A stretch of 28,912 nucleotides of DNA. Source: a virus. The translations under genes and the position numbers were made by a program. The stretch's first letter is position 1. Each line of letters starts with the position of its first letter. Below the pieces are notes generated by a model that saw nothing but the letters and a program-made list of their open reading frames with translations, was not told where the DNA came from and did not search any database. Positions 2,475 through 25,621 of the stretch are shown here, in pieces. The stretch is taken from positions 1-28,912 of the IMG/VR virus record IMGVR_UViG_3300030389_001603; one strand, 5' to 3'.

Positions 2475-2498
2475 CATAAAATAACTTGACATGGTCGA

Positions 2499-2526
2499 TT
2501 GATTGCTTTAGGTATAGTTTTATAAC
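2499..2526 (+). promoter_or_regulatory. Candidate rightward promoter
   Basis: TTGATT (2499-2504, 4 of 6 to consensus) is separated by 16 nt from TATAAC (2521-2526, 5 of 6). Initiation would fall near 2533, at the foot of the long hairpin 2527-2572, so the mRNA would begin with that structure. An alternative pair, TTGACA at 2486 with TATAGT at 2513, has a 21-nt spacer and is less likely. Confidence 0.45.
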
Positions 2527-2572
2527 GATAAAATTTATATCTGAATATCTTGTGAAGATATAAATTGTTATC
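2527..2572 (+). repeat. Leader hairpin, diverged relative of the 67-bp repeat hairpin
   Basis: AATTTATATCT (2532-2542) pairs perfectly with AGATATAAATT (2556-2566) around a 13-nt loop. The stem extends outward through GATAA/TTATC with one bulged base, to about 16 bp. The loop begins GAAT and ends TGA, as do the loops of the hairpins at 3343-3382 and 5161-5200, and the stem sequence is similar. It sits between a candidate promoter and the RBS of the first rightward gene, like the other two. Confidence 0.55.
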
Positions 2573-2609
2573 TTATATAAAACATAACTCAAACAAAGGA
2601 TTTGAAAAA

Positions 2610-3272
2610 ATGGCTAAATCAACTCTAAAAAATCACATTTACAATGCTAATAATCCATCACTCAACACCAACGAAGTTGAAGGTCACATTATAGCTAAGG
2701 AATACAGGTCTTTCATACAAAATGAAAGAAGACAATTTAAAAAGCTTTTAAGTAAAACCAGTTGGTTTTATCGACTAGGTGAGTTACTTATCAGATTAAA
2801 ATCTGAGAGTGAGCTAGGTTATGTGACACGTGAAGTAAAGCAAAATTGTGGTATCAATAATATTGATAAGCAAAGATTGAGTGAGTCTGTTTGGTTGGTT
2901 ACTAACTACAAAGATTGTGAAACAATCATGAAAAATTCCAAAAAAGGTTATAGCAATATCCGTGCGCTACAAAGAGCTTTAAAAGCTCAAGAAAAAGCTA
3001 ATGAAGTAAAATCTAAAGATGAAAATATCAAAGATATTACACCTAACGCAAATATCAAAGATATTACACCTACCAAAAATATTGAGAATCATACCGAAGA
3101 AAAATTGAAGGATACTATCCTTTATACTTGTTCAAAGTATAACTTGGATTTAGAAAAAGTTATTAGTTTACTAAAGAATAGTAAATCTAATACTGAAGAT
3201 ACAACTATACAAGCTTACAAAGTAAGCGCACATAAAAAAGGCACATTGCCAAAAATAGAATTTTTGAATTAA
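2610..3272 (+). CDS. First gene of rightward arm, possible DUF3102-like DNA-binding protein
   Basis: A 220-residue protein. The ATG at 2610 is chosen because AAAGGA lies 9 nt upstream; a TTG at 2565 would start inside the leader hairpin. Residues about 52-125 (FYRLGELLIRLKSESELG, then a helical stretch ending IRALQRALKAQ) recall the helical layout of DUF3102-like proteins (G..Li..K..l..G.....), but the match is weak. Residues 139-154 contain NIKDITP twice, encoded by a tandem DNA repeat. The C-terminal 60 residues are a separate, mixed segment. Position, first after the control region and with its own leader hairpin, suggests a regulator or replication-initiation role; this is inference. Confidence 0.55.
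   Translation: MAKSTLKNHIYNANNPSLNTNEVEGHIIAKEYRSFIQNERRQFKKLLSKTSWFYRLGELLIRLKSESELGYVTREVKQNCGINNIDKQRLSESVWLVTNYKDCETIMKNSKKGYSNIRALQRALKAQEKANEVKSKDENIKDITPNANIKDITPTKNIENHTEEKLKDTILYTCSKYNLDLEKVISLLKNSKSNTEDTTIQAYKVSAHKKGTLPKIEFLN
3023..3072 (+). repeat. 27-nt-period tandem repeat inside a gene
   Basis: A 23-nt block beginning AAATATCAAAGATATT is repeated exactly at 3023-3045 and 3050-3072. Each copy holds a small dyad, AATATC-AAA-GATATT. In protein it duplicates NIKDITP in a charged linker. The 27-nt period keeps frame, so it looks like a recent in-frame duplication. Confidence 0.75.
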
Positions 3273-3283
3273 TACAAGCTAAA

Positions 3284-3317
3284 AATGTAACAGGTTATTT
3301 TTATAATCTGTTACATT
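3284..3317 (+). terminator. Strong 15-bp stem after first rightward gene
   Basis: AATGTAACAG (3284-3293) pairs perfectly with CTGTTACATT (3308-3317), and the stem continues inward by five further pairs (one G-T) to a TTTT tetraloop. It starts 12 nt after the stop codon. There is no U-run after it on the plus strand, so it may end transcription weakly, protect a 3' end, or attenuate. An alternative hairpin, TGTTAC-ATTGAA-GTAACA (3309-3326), shares one arm and would exclude the first. Confidence 0.5.
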
Positions 3318-3330
3318 GAAGTAACACTAT

Positions 3331-3397
3331 TTATAATATTTTTATTTATATACTTGAATGTTTTTATGAAAGTATATAAATATAAATAATATAATAA
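3331..3397 (+). repeat. 67-bp repeat, copy A (promoter-like hexamer plus hairpin)
   Basis: These 67 bases are identical to 5149-5215. The element starts with a perfect -10-like TATAAT (3332-3337) with no good -35 at normal spacing. Six bases later a hairpin begins: TATTTATATACTT (3343-3355) pairs with AAGTATATAAATA (3370-3382) around a 14-nt loop that begins GAAT and ends TGA. An AT-rich tail follows to 3397. If TATAAT is used, the transcript begins at the hairpin. The sequence TAACAC lies just before both copies. Confidence 0.8.
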
Positions 3398-3405
3398 ATC
3401 ACTTA

Positions 3406-3426
3406 AACAGTCCGACTGTCGGACAC
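3406..3426 (+). promoter_or_regulatory. 21-bp GC-rich palindrome element, copy 1
   Basis: Contains GTCCGACTGTCGGAC, a perfect odd palindrome with 7-bp arms, within a 21-bp block (AACA-palindrome-AC) shared exactly with 4227-4247 and 5231-5251. It lies between the 67-bp repeat and the RBS of the gene at 3446. As DNA it looks like an operator; as RNA it could fold as GUCCG-ACUGU-CGGAC just ahead of the RBS. Confidence 0.8.
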
Positions 3427-3445
3427 CAACAAAGAAAGTAAAACA

Positions 3446-4222
3446 ATGTTTGACATACAACCACAAAGAAAAATAAGTATTCCTAAAACAGGCTATAAAG
3501 GTAATATTGCGTCTTCGGGTAGTGATGCTAAAACTATCAAAGGCAATGGAGATGCGTATGAAACCGCTATTGCCTATTTGAAGCCGTATAAAACAATGAT
3601 TGATAACAAAGAGTATAACACTTGCTCAATGGCTAGCATAGCTAGTTGTCATGAAGGATGTTTAAATTCTGCTGGACGTGGACGTTTTAGCAATGTGCAA
3701 GACGGAAGATTGAGAAAGACAATTTTATTTTACAAAGATAGAGCTAAATTTTTAGCTTTACTAGCTAAAGATTGCGAAGCTATGTTAAGAAGGTCAGAAA
3801 AATATGGTTGGCAAGCTTGCATGCGTTTAAATGGTACAACGGATATTATTTATGAAAAAGTTTCTTTTATCAGGAATGGAGTAAAATATAAAAATATTTT
3901 TGAAGCTTATCCTAATATTCAATTTTATGACTACACTAAAATTTGGACTAGGAATGTCAAAGACATTGATAACTATCATTTAACGTGGTCGTATTCCGAA
4001 GCTTCCGAGTGGTATGCTTCAAAGCATAAAGAAGCTTTAAATAATGGCATGAATATAGCCGTAGTTTTTAGGTCTAAAAAAATACCTAGTACCTTTTTAG
4101 GATTGCCTGTAATTGACGGCGATAAAGATGATTTAAGATTCCTAGACCCAAAAAATTGTGTAGTTGGTCTTTATGCTAAAGGCGAAGCTAAAAACGATAA
4201 AACAGGATTCGTAATTGACTAA
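3446..4222 (+). CDS. Gp88-like (DUF7227-type) cysteine-containing phage protein
   Basis: A 258-residue protein. Residues 57-100 (YNTCSMASIASCHEGCLNS, then GRGRFSNVQDGRLRKT and FYKDRAKFLALL) carry three cysteines, C60, C68 and C72, spaced as in the phage gp88 family pattern of a Cys-rich opening followed by GRG...R..KT...... R. The middle has DYTKIWTRN, and the C-terminal third has FLDPKNCVVGLYAKG, again typical of that family as I recall it. Biochemical function is unknown; the cysteines may bind metal. It has its own leader of 67-bp repeat plus palindrome, so it may be controlled apart from the main operon. Start codon follows GAAAG about 9 nt upstream, a weak RBS. Confidence 0.6.
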   Translation: MFDIQPQRKISIPKTGYKGNIASSGSDAKTIKGNGDAYETAIAYLKPYKTMIDNKEYNTCSMASIASCHEGCLNSAGRGRFSNVQDGRLRKTILFYKDRAKFLALLAKDCEAMLRRSEKYGWQACMRLNGTTDIIYEKVSFIRNGVKYKNIFEAYPNIQFYDYTKIWTRNVKDIDNYHLTWSYSEASEWYASKHKEALNNGMNIAVVFRSKKIPSTFLGLPVIDGDKDDLRFLDPKNCVVGLYAKGEAKNDKTGFVID

Positions 4223-4226
4223 TTCA

Positions 4227-4247
4227 AACAGTCCGACTGTCGGACAC
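4227..4247 (+). promoter_or_regulatory. 21-bp GC-rich palindrome element, copy 2
   Basis: Same 21 bases as at 3406-3426 and 5231-5251, here 4 nt after the stop of the gp88-like gene and 17 nt before the ATG of a microprotein. This copy lacks the 67-bp hairpin repeat, which shows that the palindrome is an independent unit placed before RBSs. Confidence 0.8.
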
Positions 4248-4264
4248 TAAAAAAGGAAAGTAAA

Positions 4265-4390
4265 ATGAGAAACTTTGTAAAAATACCAAAGAAAAATAAT
4301 AAAAATAAACCCTCACCAAAACGTGACGATTGGAAAAGAAAAAGAAATCAAGCTAGAAAAGACAAGATTTTCAGAAGAAAAATTGCGTAG
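4265..4390 (+). CDS. 41-residue highly basic microprotein
   Basis: MRNFVKIPKKNNKNK, then PSPKRDDWKRKRNQARKDKI and FRRKIA: about half the residues are lysine, arginine or asparagine. AAAGGAAAG lies 5-8 nt upstream of the ATG, and the GC-rich palindrome lies just before that. No family recognised. A protein of this charge probably binds nucleic acid or ribosomes. The position directly after a regulatory palindrome supports a real gene, although it is short. Confidence 0.6.
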   Translation: MRNFVKIPKKNNKNKPSPKRDDWKRKRNQARKDKIFRRKIA

Positions 4391-4431
4391 AAGCTGAAAT
4401 AAATTATGTAAATAAACAGAAGGAGATTCAT

Positions 4432-4857
4432 ATGAATATAATTTCAATAGACCACGAAGTGAATGAGGTTATATGTACTGACCAGAATAATTCTGGCAGA
4501 AATTGGAGAGTAAAATTGTTATTTAAAGGCGATAAGTATGGTTTAAATAACTGCCTTACTCACAATAAGGATAAACCAATGGTAGAGTTTTATGACCTAA
4601 AATATATAGATAAGTTTGGGAAAGATGGTCAATTTGTTAGTAGATATGACTTAGGCACTATCTTATTTGAAGGCTATGTTTTTTCTAGGTCACAACTGAT
4701 GAATGCATCTGAGAGAGATTCACGATATGGTATTACATTACAAGGTAATGTTGATGGATGGGAGATGTCTTCTGATTGTCTTAATGAAGTATTGGAAAAG
4801 ATTAAAATCATGTACATAAAAAATCAGTTAGCTCCTTCATATGGAGAATTAAAATGA
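4432..4857 (+). CDS. Hypothetical protein, 141 residues
   Basis: Soluble mixed alpha/beta protein with no recognised motif. It starts MNIISIDHEVNEVICTDQ, has a central MVEFYDLKYIDKFGKDGQFV segment, and ends in a helical LNEVLEKIKIMYIKNQ region. In the middle, FVSRYDLGTILFE suggests a small beta-rich fold. The start has a strong AAGGAG 7 nt upstream. Its stop overlaps the next ATG (ATGA), so translation of the following small gene is coupled. Confidence 0.7.
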   Translation: MNIISIDHEVNEVICTDQNNSGRNWRVKLLFKGDKYGLNNCLTHNKDKPMVEFYDLKYIDKFGKDGQFVSRYDLGTILFEGYVFSRSQLMNASERDSRYGITLQGNVDGWEMSSDCLNEVLEKIKIMYIKNQLAPSYGELK

Positions 4858-5021
4858 TAAATGAAACTAAACCACAGGTCGTAGATTGTTATGAACTTTT
4901 GACACTAGAGCAACGTGAACAAGTTGGTGACATAATAATTGAAGCATTAATAGATAACGACATACACCCAGAAATATGGGAAATAAAAGTTGAAGCAATT
5001 ATTGACGGAGAATTAAAATGA
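4854..5021 (+). CDS. Small acidic hypothetical protein, 55 residues
   Basis: MINETKPQVVDCYELLTLEQ, followed by a helical acidic stretch and ending AIIDGELK. It overlaps the upstream gene by four bases (ATGA) and the downstream one in the same way; GGAGAATTAAAATG recurs at both junctions, giving each a good RBS. That twin junction is strong evidence that it is translated. Family unknown. Confidence 0.6.
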   Translation: MINETKPQVVDCYELLTLEQREQVGDIIIEALIDNDIHPEIWEIKVEAIIDGELK

Positions 5022-5101
5022 TACATTTAGAAGATATTATGTCAGTTATAACTTTAGTTATATCACTCTATATAATTACAGTAATTCTTTTTTCACTATA
5101 A
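5018..5101 (+). CDS. 27-residue single-span membrane peptide
   Basis: After MIHLEDIM the rest (SVITLVISLYIITVILFSL) is one hydrophobic helix long enough to cross the membrane. The ATG overlaps the previous stop (ATGA) and has GGAG about 8 nt upstream. Too short for family assignment. Such peptides in phages can be holin-like, inhibitors of host membrane proteins, or without function. Confidence 0.5.
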   Translation: MIHLEDIMSVITLVISLYIITVILFSL

Positions 5102-5110
5102 CAATCAATG

Positions 5111-5138
5111 ATTGTGGCATCTTTAATGGTGTCACAAT
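5111..5138 (+). terminator. Hairpin after the early cluster
   Basis: ATTGTGGCA (5111-5119) pairs with TGTCACAAT (5130-5138), nine pairs with one G-T, loop of 10 nt. A second small dyad, ACAATCA-A-TGATTGT (5101-5115), overlaps its left arm. There is no immediate U-run. It stands where the transcript of the 3446-5101 cluster would end, just before the second 67-bp repeat. Confidence 0.4.
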
Positions 5139-5148
5139 TATAACACAA

Positions 5149-5215
5149 TTATAATATTTTTATTTATATACTTGAATGTTTTTATGAAAGTATATAAATA
5201 TAAATAATATAATAA
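5149..5215 (+). repeat. 67-bp repeat, copy B, at head of long operon
   Basis: Identical over 67 bases to 3331-3397: TATAAT at 5150-5155, then the 13-bp stem between 5161-5173 and 5188-5200. It stands at the head of the unbroken gene run 5271-21790. Perfect identity between non-coding copies 1.8 kb apart implies either selection or recent conversion. Confidence 0.8.
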
Positions 5216-5230
5216 TAACAACTAAACTGA

Positions 5231-5251
5231 AACAGTCCGACTGTCGGACAC
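5231..5251 (+). promoter_or_regulatory. 21-bp GC-rich palindrome element, copy 3
   Basis: Exact third copy of the block at 3406 and 4227, again between the 67-bp repeat and an RBS (AGGAGA at about 5258). It precedes the gene at 5271, the first of the long operon. Confidence 0.8.
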
Positions 5252-5270: not shown

Positions 5271-5504
5271 ATGTTAATCTATAGAACATCTATGCTTACA
5301 GGAAAGAAGCATTCCATGAATATTGATGTCACAGAAGAACAGATATCTAGCTGGGAAGCTGAACAAGATAGAATTAGTCCACTTTATTTTAGTCGTAGGC
5401 TAATACAGGATGCCTTTCCAAATCTCTCTGCTGATGAAAGAGAGTTTATTAAAACAGGTATAACACCTGAGGAGTGGGATAACATGTGTCAGGAGGAAGA
5501 ATAA
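5271..5504 (+). CDS. Conserved marine phage protein of the ITPEEWD type
   Basis: A 77-residue protein: MLIYRTSMLTGKKHSMNIDV, then EEQISSWE, and LIQDAFPNLSADEREFIKTG ITPEEWD near the C-terminus. The combination of a RTSMLTGK start, LIQDAFP.L..DEREF and TGITPEEWD is a pattern I recognise from many cyanophage and marine phage hypothetical proteins. The function is unknown. RBS AGGAGA is well placed. The stop overlaps the next ATG by one base. As first gene behind the leader cassette it is likely to be made early. Confidence 0.75.
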   Translation: MLIYRTSMLTGKKHSMNIDVTEEQISSWEAEQDRISPLYFSRRLIQDAFPNLSADEREFIKTGITPEEWDNMCQEEE

Positions 5505-5838: not shown

Positions 5839-6183
5839 ATGACCAACACAGTACAAAATACAAAGACACCTGTAACCAATGAAGTAGAGAAAAAGTTACC
5901 ATCGCATCTATATGCGAAGCATCAAGAAAAAGGTGCATACAAAAAGAAGGCAAACCCTTTTACATACAACTATGTAATTATGGACGCAGTTATATTTGAA
6001 GTGTTTAAAGAAACTACTATGAAAGATATATCAACTGCTTTAAAAGAGCCTATGGCTAGAGTTCAATACAGAGTTAAGGTATTGAGAGAAGAGGGTTTAG
6101 TAGCTCGTAAAGTTAAATTCAAAACAAGAAAAGTTAATGCTAAAGCAATAACTAAATCTAATAATAAAAAGAGGGTGGCATAA
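5839..6183 (+). CDS. Probable winged-helix DNA-binding protein
   Basis: A 114-residue basic protein. Residues about 45-95 (YVIMDAVIFEVFKETTMKD, ISTALKEPMARVQYRVKVL, REEGLVARK) follow the order of a winged helix-turn-helix: helix, helix, recognition helix with R.QYRVK.L, then the GLVARKV wing. This is typical of ArsR/MarR-like regulators. The N-terminal 40 residues look disordered and the C-terminus is lysine-rich. It is the best candidate in the window for a regulator acting on the palindromic sites upstream, though nothing links them directly. Good RBS (AAAGGAG). Its stop codon lies inside a hairpin that may tune the next gene. Confidence 0.6.
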   Translation: MTNTVQNTKTPVTNEVEKKLPSHLYAKHQEKGAYKKKANPFTYNYVIMDAVIFEVFKETTMKDISTALKEPMARVQYRVKVLREEGLVARKVKFKTRKVNAKAITKSNNKKRVA

Positions 6184-21790: not shown

Positions 21791-24700
21791 TTAATTTTTT
21801 ATAAGTGATTGTATTTTTCTCTCTTGTTTATCCTGTTCTTTAGCAATAGCCACTAGTTCTCTTACTATTTTTACATCTGAAAAATCTATAGCACTTTTTT
21901 CATTTTCTCTTTTATATTGTTCTATTGCAATTCTTCTACTAGGAATAGACAATTTTTTAAATTGAGATACTGCTGAATATAAAGGTCCAGATTCAAATTC
22001 TCTTTGTGGTTTAAAGGCATCTTTTAAACTACGTAAAAATGTATTAGCTCTTTGCTGTAGTCTAGTTCTTACTTCTAAAGGTTTTACATTATTTTTCTTT
22101 AAGTCTGACTCCATGTTCATTAATATTGGAACTAGAAATCCATGTATATGTTCTACTAAAAATTTAGATTCTGCTTGCCTAGCTTTTTCAGAGTCTGTTA
22201 AAGTTGGTATTCTGTAAGATTGAAATCCTAAATCTATTAAATACTCACCCTCTTCTGATGGTGCAGTTTGTTGTTTAAGACCAGTGATTACACTAACTAA
22301 ACTTGATTTACGTTTTATAATTCCGTCTTCTCTAAGGACATCTATTTTAAATTCTCTAGCTTTTTCTAATTCAGGACTTTCAAGTTTTTTAAACTTAGAG
22401 GTAAATCCCTTTTTTAAATTTTCTAATGCACCTATTACTGGCTCATCTCTTCTTGATACAACTTCTGCTGGTCTTAATCCAGCAACTCTTTCTAATTCAA
22501 GTATCTGATTGTAAGGAACAAAGAATGTCGCAACATAGTTTCCTGCAAGCTCTCCTATAGCTTCAGCAGTTTTACCTCCTTTAACACCTTCATTTATAAC
22601 ATTTGCTAGTCCATCTACTATTTGATTACCACTACCAACTCTAAGATTTGAGCCAAGAAAAGTTCTTGAAACTTCACCTGTTCTAAATTCTTCAGCAAAG
22701 TAACTTCCAGCTTGTCCAATTCTTTCTAAAAAACTTAGCCCTTCGCCTTCCTCAAATTTTTCTGCAACTTGACCCATAAAAGTTAATTGTCTTAAAGGAT
22801 AAAGAGGTGACGCATCTGTTTCATAGTTCTCCTCTAGACTAATCATTTTATAATCTGCTGGTGCTCCTTCTGATTTTCTAAATTCATATGCTCCATATAA
22901 AGCAGCTAAACCTACTAGATTATTGCCCATAAGTCTTCTTTCTGCTGTTCCAAAATCTTTACTATCCTTATACAAAATATCTTTTAGTAAAGAGTACATA
23001 GGATTTTTTGTAGGAGACATTCCGGGTATTGCAGATGTTTTAACTAAAGCTGTGCCCGGAGTATAAGCTGCTATTCTCTCCATAGCTTTAAACATAAAGT
23101 TTGGAAAAGGCAATACTACAGTACCACCACTTCTTACTATAAAATTTGAAACAGCTGCAAGAGCAGGACTATCAGGCTTTGACCCAAATGTTACATCTAA
23201 AGCATTTTTCATAGCGTCTTCCATTATAAAACCAAATGAACGTGCACCTTCAGGTCTAAATTCTGATGAGTCATTTATAATATCTAAAAGTTTTCCGTTT
23301 TCTAATTGCTTTAAAAAATCTACATTCCATTCTCTTTTTATTATTCTTTCTAAATCTGCTATTAAATATGTGCTTCTTATAACATGCTCTTGAAAACGAT
23401 TAGGAATGTTAAGAACATTTACTAAATCTTCAAACTCAGATAAAGTATTGTCTATAAACTTACCACCTCTAGTTGTAGCTAGACCCCTGTTTGCATTTTG
23501 TATTTCGTTAAGTCTCAAAAATAGTCGTTCATTTTTACTAGCAAACTCAGGTCTATCTAATATTAGTTTTGCTATTTCAACAGAGCGTTGTGGGTCATTA
23601 AACATTAAATCTAATTGTTTAAAACTAGTTTTCCATGAGCTAGAAAATGGATTAATAAGTTCTTTACCTACGTTGATTGGTAATACAGTTTTTAATGTTT
23701 TATCTACAATTCCATTTGATTTATTTATGTCGTCTACATATTTAAATAATACATTATCTGCCATATTAACAACAGTATCCATACTAGATAACATTCCAGC
23801 AGATGTTAAGTTACGAGTGGCAGTTGCTATCTGAGACACTAAGCCACCTCTTCTTATATTTTCTATTCTCATCAGATTATTATATACGATAGATTGTTGC
23901 TCTAAAAATTTTTTATCTCTTGCAAATTGTTTTTCGCCTAAAGTCTTAGTTGCTTTACGTATTTGAGATAATTTCTGTAATGTTTTACCAGCATCAGAAC
24001 CAGAGCCAACAACTGTAAGAACAAAATCCTCAAAACCTAATCCATACTTATTAAGGTCATCTAACATTTCTTGACCTCCTATTTTACCCTGTATGGTTAG
24101 TTCTTCTAAATTTCTTATTACTGTTTTATTAGGATTAAATTTTATACCATCCTTTTTTTGCACCTCTTTTACATAAGACACAAGAGCATTTAATTTATCT
24201 GGATTTAATATTGGAGAGACAAGAAGGTCTGTATCTATATCATTTACAACGACTGGAGCTTGCGCCATAAACTGTTCCATAGTTTCTTTTCCTATGGCAA
24301 CGCTTTTAGCGTCATCTATTTGTCGATTACCATTCTTATCTACTTTTGATATAGTTACAAAATCTTTATCTGTTCTATTTAGTCCTTTATTTAAAGCAAG
24401 ACTTTCCTCAAATTTTTCTATTAATTCGTTTTTTATTTTTGGATTATTATCTCCTATTACTTTAGCGACATTATATTTTTTTTGCAACTCGTCTGCCATT
24501 CTGATTTTTACTACACTTGCTGGTGGTAATCCCCTAAATTGCTTGTCTGCACTCCTAAATATATTAGTAATCTTTTTAGTAAACTCACTATCTTTTTTTA
24601 ATTGTCTCTGAACTTTTCTATCAAGCTTAGATAAAAAGCTTTTAGGTGTTTTAGTTGCTAACGCATAACCCGGAATAGTTTCAAAAAAAGCAGGTTCTTT

Positions 24701-25621
24701 TTCACTTCCAACAAGAAGAAAGGCAAGCGTATTTACAAAAGCCTCTCCAGCTTCTTCTGGAGTACCAATATTTGTTAAACCTAACCACTTATAAAATGGT
24801 GATTTTGCAATTATTTTTTCCGTTTTTTTACTAAATGGTATTTTAATTTCTCCTGTTTCAGGGTCACTAATACTCTTTCCTAATCCATATCTAAACAAAC
24901 CATCAAGAGCTACTAGACCTGCCTCTGTAACATCAGCTATTGCTCTGGGTGTTTCATTAAATAGTGTCACAAGTGCTGATAAAGTAGCGGCGGCTACCGA
25001 TGTGCTTATACCATCTGTTTTTCTATCCATGTTACTAAGTGCACCAAATTGTCCTTCTTTAATTGAATCACGTATAGCTTTATAATAACGAGTAAATTCT
25101 GAGGGAATATCATCTACTTTTGTAAATAATTTTTTAGCTTCTTCTTCTTTTCTAAGTCTTTCTTCTTTTGTTCTTAAATATTGTTCCAACTGCCTTCTAT
25201 CATAATCTTCTTTAAATTGTTCTTTTTGAATTGAATCATATGGTGGAGGAGCAGAAGCAGAAGGAAAAACATTAATATCTTTAACTGAAGAAACATCCGA
25301 TTCTTCTTCCTCTTTTTCTTCGGCTATATCATTAACAGATGGTACTACATCTGGTCTTATTTGAAACGAACTATTGGTATCTTTATTAATAGTATAGGGA
25401 GAGACTTTACGATAACTACGTTGATTGTTATCTTGGTCTACTTCTTCTTCAATATTTAAATGATTTGTATCTGGGTTTGATAACTTTTTTCTTTTATTAA
25501 AAAACTCTAATGAATATTCCATAGTATTAGATGTTTCTAGGTCAGAATCTATTTGATTAGTTACTGTAGAATCAGTACTAATACCTTTATTTAAAAACTG
25601 TAATGCAAATTCCATACTCAT
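21791..25621 (-). CDS. Large internal virion / DNA ejection-like protein, 1276 residues
   Basis: A huge minus-strand protein next to other virion-like genes, of the size of T7 gp16-type ejection proteins (gp16 is 1318). The first 180 residues are low-complexity and acidic (EEKEEEESDVSS), with a duplicated short motif MEFALQFLNK (3-12) and MEYSLEFFNK (34-43). The rest is mainly helical with hydrophobic segments such as STSVAAATLSALVTLF. No lytic-transglycosylase motif was seen. Assignment as an ejectosome protein rests on size, position and composition. A weak AAGGAT lies about 13 nt before the ATG at 25621. Confidence 0.6.
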   Translation of the reverse strand: MSMEFALQFLNKGISTDSTVTNQIDSDLETSNTMEYSLEFFNKRKKLSNPDTNHLNIEEEVDQDNNQRSYRKVSPYTINKDTNSSFQIRPDVVPSVNDIAEEKEEEESDVSSVKDINVFPSASAPPPYDSIQKEQFKEDYDRRQLEQYLRTKEERLRKEEEAKKLFTKVDDIPSEFTRYYKAIRDSIKEGQFGALSNMDRKTDGISTSVAAATLSALVTLFNETPRAIADVTEAGLVALDGLFRYGLGKSISDPETGEIKIPFSKKTEKIIAKSPFYKWLGLTNIGTPEEAGEAFVNTLAFLLVGSEKEPAFFETIPGYALATKTPKSFLSKLDRKVQRQLKKDSEFTKKITNIFRSADKQFRGLPPASVVKIRMADELQKKYNVAKVIGDNNPKIKNELIEKFEESLALNKGLNRTDKDFVTISKVDKNGNRQIDDAKSVAIGKETMEQFMAQAPVVVNDIDTDLLVSPILNPDKLNALVSYVKEVQKKDGIKFNPNKTVIRNLEELTIQGKIGGQEMLDDLNKYGLGFEDFVLTVVGSGSDAGKTLQKLSQIRKATKTLGEKQFARDKKFLEQQSIVYNNLMRIENIRRGGLVSQIATATRNLTSAGMLSSMDTVVNMADNVLFKYVDDINKSNGIVDKTLKTVLPINVGKELINPFSSSWKTSFKQLDLMFNDPQRSVEIAKLILDRPEFASKNERLFLRLNEIQNANRGLATTRGGKFIDNTLSEFEDLVNVLNIPNRFQEHVIRSTYLIADLERIIKREWNVDFLKQLENGKLLDIINDSSEFRPEGARSFGFIMEDAMKNALDVTFGSKPDSPALAAVSNFIVRSGGTVVLPFPNFMFKAMERIAAYTPGTALVKTSAIPGMSPTKNPMYSLLKDILYKDSKDFGTAERRLMGNNLVGLAALYGAYEFRKSEGAPADYKMISLEENYETDASPLYPLRQLTFMGQVAEKFEEGEGLSFLERIGQAGSYFAEEFRTGEVSRTFLGSNLRVGSGNQIVDGLANVINEGVKGGKTAEAIGELAGNYVATFFVPYNQILELERVAGLRPAEVVSRRDEPVIGALENLKKGFTSKFKKLESPELEKAREFKIDVLREDGIIKRKSSLVSVITGLKQQTAPSEEGEYLIDLGFQSYRIPTLTDSEKARQAESKFLVEHIHGFLVPILMNMESDLKKNNVKPLEVRTRLQQRANTFLRSLKDAFKPQREFESGPLYSAVSQFKKLSIPSRRIAIEQYKRENEKSAIDFSDVKIVRELVAIAKEQDKQERKIQSLIKN

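Follow-up and report, generated by a model that had tools for sequence, protein, structure and literature searches.

The window analyzed here, a stretch of 28,912 nucleotides, is a complete IMG/VR virus record (IMGVR_UViG_3300030389_001603). Its DNA polymerase shares 70% identity with that of Puniceispirillum phage HMO-2011 and 68–69% with those of roseophages CRP-345 and CRP-1, and the window is therefore assigned to the HMO-2011-type marine phages, a dominant and broadly distributed marine viral group (PMC9038755). Long hairpins open its rightward, early-type arm, ahead of methyltransferase, integrase, primase, helicase and polymerase genes; the content and order of this arm suggest that its genes are early genes. 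As the earlier note had proposed, the hairpins lie upstream of the genes starting at 2610, 3446 and 5271, positions that the list of open reading frames bears out (Table 1).

Table 1. Coordinates of the hairpins, associated motifs and downstream genes in the window
Feature	Position	Strand	Basis and remarks
Possible −35 TTGACA	2486..2491	+	sequence; upstream of first-gene hairpin
First-gene hairpin, A-like	2517..2583	+	fold z −4.2; R1 match; loop 2543–2555 GAATATCTTGTGA
Gene after first-gene hairpin	2610..3272	+	ORF, 220 aa, unknown function
Hairpin A copy 1	3331..3394	+	repeat and fold; stem 13 bp + 1x1 + 5 bp + 1x1 + 5 bp
TATAAT, copy 1	3332..3337	+	inside 5' strand of outer stem (folds)
Element B	3410..3424	.	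palindrome GTCCGACTGTCGGAC
Gene after hairpin A copy 1	3446..4222	+	GP88 family PF17338 (Pfam E 7e-40); PHROG 1617 E 2.5e-68
Element B, without adjoining hairpin A	4231..4245	.	palindrome GTCCGACTGTCGGAC
Hairpin A copy 2	5148..5213	+	repeat and fold; loop 5174–5187; same as copy 1 over 67 nt
TATAAT, copy 2	5150..5155	+	inside 5' strand of outer stem (folds)
Element B	5235..5249	.	palindrome GTCCGACTGTCGGAC
Gene after hairpin A copy 2	5271..5504	+	77 aa, PHROG 20898

Bases 3331–3397 and 5149–5215 are exactly identical over 67 nt, a length at which chance is excluded, and both contain the TATAAT described previously. The 13-bp stem reported for these copies does exist as a perfect helix (3343–3355 with 3370–3382 in copy 1), but it is only the upper part of a structure whose pairing extends outward. 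In both copies the full stem comprises 13 bp, a 1x1 mismatch, 5 bp, a second 1x1 mismatch and 5–6 bp, so that the whole stem of this element, hereafter hairpin A, reaches about 25 bp in the window. The apical loop of copy 1 (3356–3369) begins with GA at 3356–3357 and ends with TGA at 3367–3369. Compared with dinucleotide shuffles, the folds give z-scores of −5.9 and −6.1 for the 67-nt copies and −4.2 for the hairpin at 2517–2583. Short additional hairpins without a clear T tract are found upstream of copy 1 at 3284–3317 (AATGTAACAG..CTGTTACATT) and of copy 2 at 5111–5139 (ATTGTGGCA..TGTCACAAT), about 9–14 nt before each 67-nt copy. Immediately ahead of copy 2, positions 5018–5101 form a possible open reading frame for a 27-aa membrane peptide (MIHLEDIMSVITLVISLYIITVILFSL).

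The diverged third hairpin recognized in the earlier note proved to be a true relative, longer than the 2527–2572 originally given. It was recovered at 25.8 bits (E 0.0056) by covariance model R1, which had been built without it. The 67-nt copies both score 45.6 bits (3336–3389 and 5154–5207), values that are not independent because their sequence is one of the 29 used to train R1. Counterparts of the third hairpin precede homologous genes in several other phages, and the product of gene 2610 clusters with those of five genes found downstream of such hairpins elsewhere (18–26% identity, too diverged to serve for collecting further loci). A second loop class, nn...TGA enclosed between CTC and GAG, occurs about 0.9–1.5 kb upstream of the main hairpin in loci L115, L435, L465, L481 and L487; the corresponding spacing in the window is 813 bp. 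Among the 19 listed members of this CTC/GAG class, the following gene mostly begins in the style of gene 2610. Since the placement of this class, the style of the gene start and the clustering of gene 2610 agree, the third hairpin is regarded as the family member that precedes the first gene.

A plain hairpin scan of relatives revealed the same design in HMO-2011 (record bases 4–42), CRP-345 and three contigs, and hairpin A is now known from HMO-2011, CRP-345, CRP-1 and dozens of viral contigs. Pattern searches combined with a structure filter returned 71 distinct candidates, a minority of which are short-stem chance hits in coding regions; their stem scores are bimodal, with the bulk at 2–4 and a second group at about 9–17. 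Copies have in common the loop ends GA...TGA, usually within ACTTGA...TGAAAGT, and the stem sequence otherwise varies. In 29 sequences picked by a minimum stem score, 17 of 20 stem pairs are altered on both sides, the covariation score is 0.52 against 0.19 in shuffled alignments and 0.14–0.19 with slid partners, and 81% of cells are paired as opposed to 59% and 41–49%, respectively. The search pattern itself dictated three loop-adjacent pairs, and the stem filter partly ensures the inner ones; it is therefore the pairs past the first six or so that constitute fair evidence of covariation. The covariance model and pattern-free scans moreover identified members whose inner, loop-side pairs are changed on both arms: CACTA-GA/TGA-TAGTG (L229, L179), GAGTT/AACTC (L378), CTCTC/GAGAG (L342), CCCTT/AAGGG (L256, L378), CT/AG (the second HMO-2011 copy and L137) and ATAT/ATAT (L019, L022, L054, L318). 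Thus both compensatory changes and conservation in related phages, which the earlier note had suggested looking for with a covariance model, were found.

The family also emerged from sequences gathered without reference to it. A set of 170 loci (1.73 Mb), retrieved through their polymerase or primase or drawn from isolate genomes, was searched for every hairpin having 11 or more Watson-Crick pairs out of 12 and a loop of 8–16 nt, each site being counted once; 14 of the 34 long hairpins had GA...GA loops, the next class, AC...GA, numbering four. The model matched 14 of 33 records picked without regard to hairpins, many of them fragments that may miss the early region. We hold it virtually certain that an unnamed family of long covarying hairpins precedes early genes of HMO-2011-type phages. 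Folded individually, its members form about 17 to 35 bp as a row of helices, with an upper stem of about 9–19 bp, a lower stem and, between them, small bulges or loops that recur, for the most part on the 3' side. The loop varies from about 10 to 14 nt; the cap, when formed, consists of 2–3 bp over a 2x2 GA/GA step whose sequence probably corresponds to tandem sheared G-A pairs. A looser scan detected six family hairpins within a 2.1-kb stretch of locus L318 (8873–10985 of IMGVR_UViG_3300030090_000972), four of them capped ATAT-GA..TGA-ATAT. Incidentally, the same HMO-type phage contigs (L513/L514 and L516/L517) have been binned in two differently labelled metagenome-assembled genomes, Flavobacteriales TMED123 and Neomarinimicrobiota MED589, and were probably misassigned to these bacterial bins.

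Hairpin A occupies a restricted position in the genome. Whole-genome searches gave matches at 1–49 and 1198–1249 in HMO-2011, at a single site in CRP-345 (811–862, an extra match being the opposite strand of this site) and at 983–1034 in CRP-1. None of these matches lies more than 1.3 kb into its record; all stand where the early arm begins, and the structural arm of these three complete genomes contains none. The isolates CRP-2, CRP-207 and HTVC033P yielded no model match, and hairpin A is consequently not universal in the HMO-2011 group. Records usually hold 1–4 copies by the model, and in contigs carrying a polymerase gene hairpin A lies upstream of that gene on the same strand. For most copies, no more than tens of bases separate the hairpin from the end of the preceding open reading frame, and a Shine-Dalgarno sequence and start codon follow, in clear cases 7–69 nt past the hairpin. 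Downstream genes fall into 10 clusters of at least two members and many singletons, and a diversity of this kind implies that the hairpin is not bound to one gene; homologues of the 77-aa gene at 5271 are found downstream of hairpin A in eight other loci. A host origin was sought in 190 genomes from the class to which a Rhodobiaceae-labelled genome belongs, where the model had no match at E 0.001 in a search run without a positive control, and one exact-pattern scan of bacterial genomes found no hairpin A.

A second element, palindrome B, accompanies part of these hairpins. The 15-bp palindrome GTCCGACTGTCGGAC is present three times in the window, for 0.06 occurrences expected by chance. Its copies, of the general form GTCC-R...-Y-GGAC, are almost the same throughout one phage and change from phage to phage, with 3–6 copies per phage in both orientations, mostly in early regions (the window, L171, L172, L087 and L138). 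HMO-2011 carries five copies around its early region (four GTCCGACAGCGGAC and one reverse complement), L087 has six copies of GTCCGACATCGGAC, and L138 has five copies of GTCCAATGTTGGAC and one reverse complement; exact matches of palindrome B in viral contigs amount to 62. This pattern suggests a phage-specific operator, which a repressor might bind. The 114-aa protein encoded at 5839–6183 (PHROG 1123, E 5.7e-4) has, by eye, a winged-helix DNA-binding appearance, and our guess would be that it reads palindrome B.

The earlier note had interpreted each copy as a TATAAT promoter with a 13-bp hairpin behind it that would form the mRNA 5' end. This layout was not supported: TATAAT is paired within the stem and is absent from most relatives. 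The region upstream of six first-gene leaders scores as promoter (KS p 0.005, exploratory like the other KS p-values below since several promoter placements were tried in turn), and a promoter just upstream of the first-gene hairpin and its counterparts is plausible; in several relatives, TTGAC may be the stop-codon context of the preceding gene and not a −35. A −10 fixed upstream of the apex was rejected, as no register stands out. According to one alternative, the base of the 5' arm would supply the −10 of a sigma-70 promoter, placing the hairpin at the extreme 5' end of the mRNA, where it would block 5'-dependent decay. Stem-loops of the ompA type at the 5' terminus stabilise mRNA, and hairpin A would protect likewise if it stood at an mRNA 5' end. 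The TTGACA-like and TAnnnT hexamers upstream of first-gene leaders and the GTTACA-N16-TATAAT of copy 1 agree with such an arrangement. We nevertheless consider it unlikely because, upstream of the other copies, promoter signal does not rise above the control region, TATAAT is not conserved, some of the TTGAC motifs are ambiguous as just mentioned, and the outer stem, which would be missing from such an RNA, pairs and covaries across phages and hence argues against a transcription start inside the hairpin.

A further possibility is an element acting at the DNA level, through extrusion of a cruciform or single-strand hairpin or through an internal promoter with its −35 in the apex TTGA or TGAAA and its −10 in the 3' arm. 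In 39 nonredundant copies, TAnnnT is enriched 16–18 nt after NTGAAA (about 40%), and the internal region of 40 copies scores high as a promoter relative to dinucleotide shuffles (KS p 2.6e-10). Shuffling the 3' arm alone, with the apex kept constant, however lowers the signal to KS p 0.003 for TTGA and 0.32 for TGAAA. It therefore mostly reflects the fixed apex and the A+T-rich arms, and an internal promoter was rejected as the cause of conservation. Taken with the stem-embedded TATAAT, this result leaves no promoter placed, the first-gene leader possibly excepted. Base composition also bears on the DNA-level explanation: stem arms contain about 18% G+C compared with 40% in the loci and genomes, which would suit melting or a promoter role as well, and G-U pairs are nearly absent from the upper stems. 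The latter is not what RNA would usually show; a DNA hairpin could account for it, as could template-switch repair of palindromes, which could keep complementarity without any RNA function, but not the cap or the position. The G-U to A-C asymmetry itself was dropped as a discriminator between RNA and DNA, there being too few non-Watson-Crick pairs (two G-U versus one A-C). Several well-formed members lack a −10 at the expected place, and a loop varying from about 10 to 14 nt is hard to reconcile with a fixed promoter or protein site; overall, action as DNA appears improbable.

Features pointing to RNA are the single strand and orientation of hairpin A, the bulges, mainly on the 3' side, of its lower stem, its position at gene junctions and a pairing kept with little sequence conservation. 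We regard it as quite probable that hairpin A acts at the RNA level, whether through processing or stability, as a 5'-end leader, in antitermination or in translational control. The early region of phage T7 contains the RNase III sites R0.3 to R1.3, which are irregular intercistronic hairpins. Hairpin A is of similar size, is likewise divided by an internal loop into an upper and a lower stem and is repeated along the early region; by its folds and positions it spans about 20 bp or more, with an internal loop, between co-directional early genes. It differs from the T7 sites by its conserved GA...TGA loop ends and its mostly A-T stems, and cleavage is predicted by analogy. Hairpin A resembles known phage mRNA hairpins in its presumed working and is a candidate for the T7 RNase III class.

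Other known hairpins compare less closely. Promoters for the virion RNA polymerase of phage N4 are hairpins with stems of 5–7 bp and loops of 3 nt. They too are hairpin-forming repeats ahead of podovirus early genes, but the stems and loops of hairpin A are much longer. For the 1276-aa virion protein of the window (21791–25621), Pfam and PDB gave no relative and regular expressions no polymerase motif. As no polymerase match appeared in this check of part of the phage proteins, in a window that holds about half of the genome, an N4-type promoter was set aside. An intrinsic terminator, which would have a G+C-rich stem with a U tract behind it, was rejected: the stem is about 90% A+T, no T run follows it and the terminator scan did not list it. 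In phage HK022, each early promoter is followed by one put site made of two neighbouring stem-loops (PMC9378689). Like hairpin A, put RNA is a folded early leader that shows bulges and conserved bases and needs no known phage protein. A put site totals about 70 nt and occurs twice per genome, whereas hairpin A is one long hairpin usually present in 1–4 copies with an optional and separate companion. An antiterminator of this kind, acting as nascent RNA on the host RNA polymerase, would explain the early-leader position, the several copies, the conserved loop and bulges, and the small second hairpin formed by B downstream of 37 of 70 copies. It is nonetheless very unlikely in our view: hairpin A repeats gene by gene unlike put (PMC9378689), and palindrome B, absent after 33 of the 70 copies by the pattern used, located 9–27 nt past the model end of hairpin A where present and also occurring alone, is separable and resembles a DNA operator.

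A last alternative is translational control. A phage RNA-binding protein could read the GA...UGA cap and repress the following genes, which would fit the nearby Shine-Dalgarno sites and the recurrence of one motif ahead of many unrelated genes. No candidate protein presents itself, however, and the Shine-Dalgarno sequence is usually unpaired and tens of bases downstream; such an operator seems to us as doubtful as the antiterminator.

We tentatively favor, at somewhat less than an even chance, an intercistronic or leader RNA hairpin for the processing or stability of early mRNA, in the manner of the T7 RNase III sites. The early genes would be read as a polycistronic RNA; in the first early gene's leader and at some of the gene junctions, it would fold into a hairpin of 20–33 bp that carries small internal loops and ends in a GA...UGA cap. 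This hairpin would serve as a double-stranded site for host RNase III, or as a blocking hairpin, and the cut or block would separate messages and expose or protect the ribosome-binding site of the next gene. In L320 (3468–3519) and L378 (6439–6491), the Shine-Dalgarno sequence lies within the 3' strand of the stem, so that cutting or melting the stem would affect translation. The earlier proposal of a phage-specific leader setting mRNA stability or regulation is retained in this form, for the leader is repeated, covarying and conserved, and it is the promoter-hairpin arrangement of every copy that was not supported. RNase III requires no conserved loop, yet GA...TGA is kept, and a more specific reader may therefore exist. 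Hairpin A would then represent a new strand-specific family of elements whose GA...UGA cap is read by a phage or host factor, whose stem drifts freely and which coordinates early genes without plain RNase III cleavage, a possibility we judge real but rather unlikely.

The opinion that no equivalent had been described in this phage group holds for the sources consulted. Rfam release 15 has no match at gathering score in the window and six relative loci, only weaker hits with E up to 5, and the main paper on HMO-2011-type phages mentions no promoters, hairpins or intergenic elements (PMC9038755). An open-access search, including few subscription papers and not extending to bioRxiv, found no literature on early-gene control in these phages; an earlier description of hairpin A may exist. 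The family is convertible to an RNA family model, and its function is testable in cultured phage-host pairs (CRP-1, CRP-345 and HMO-2011). For the HMO-2011-type phages, hairpin A provides a structurally conserved and largely sequence-free leader that marks early transcription units in unannotated contigs.
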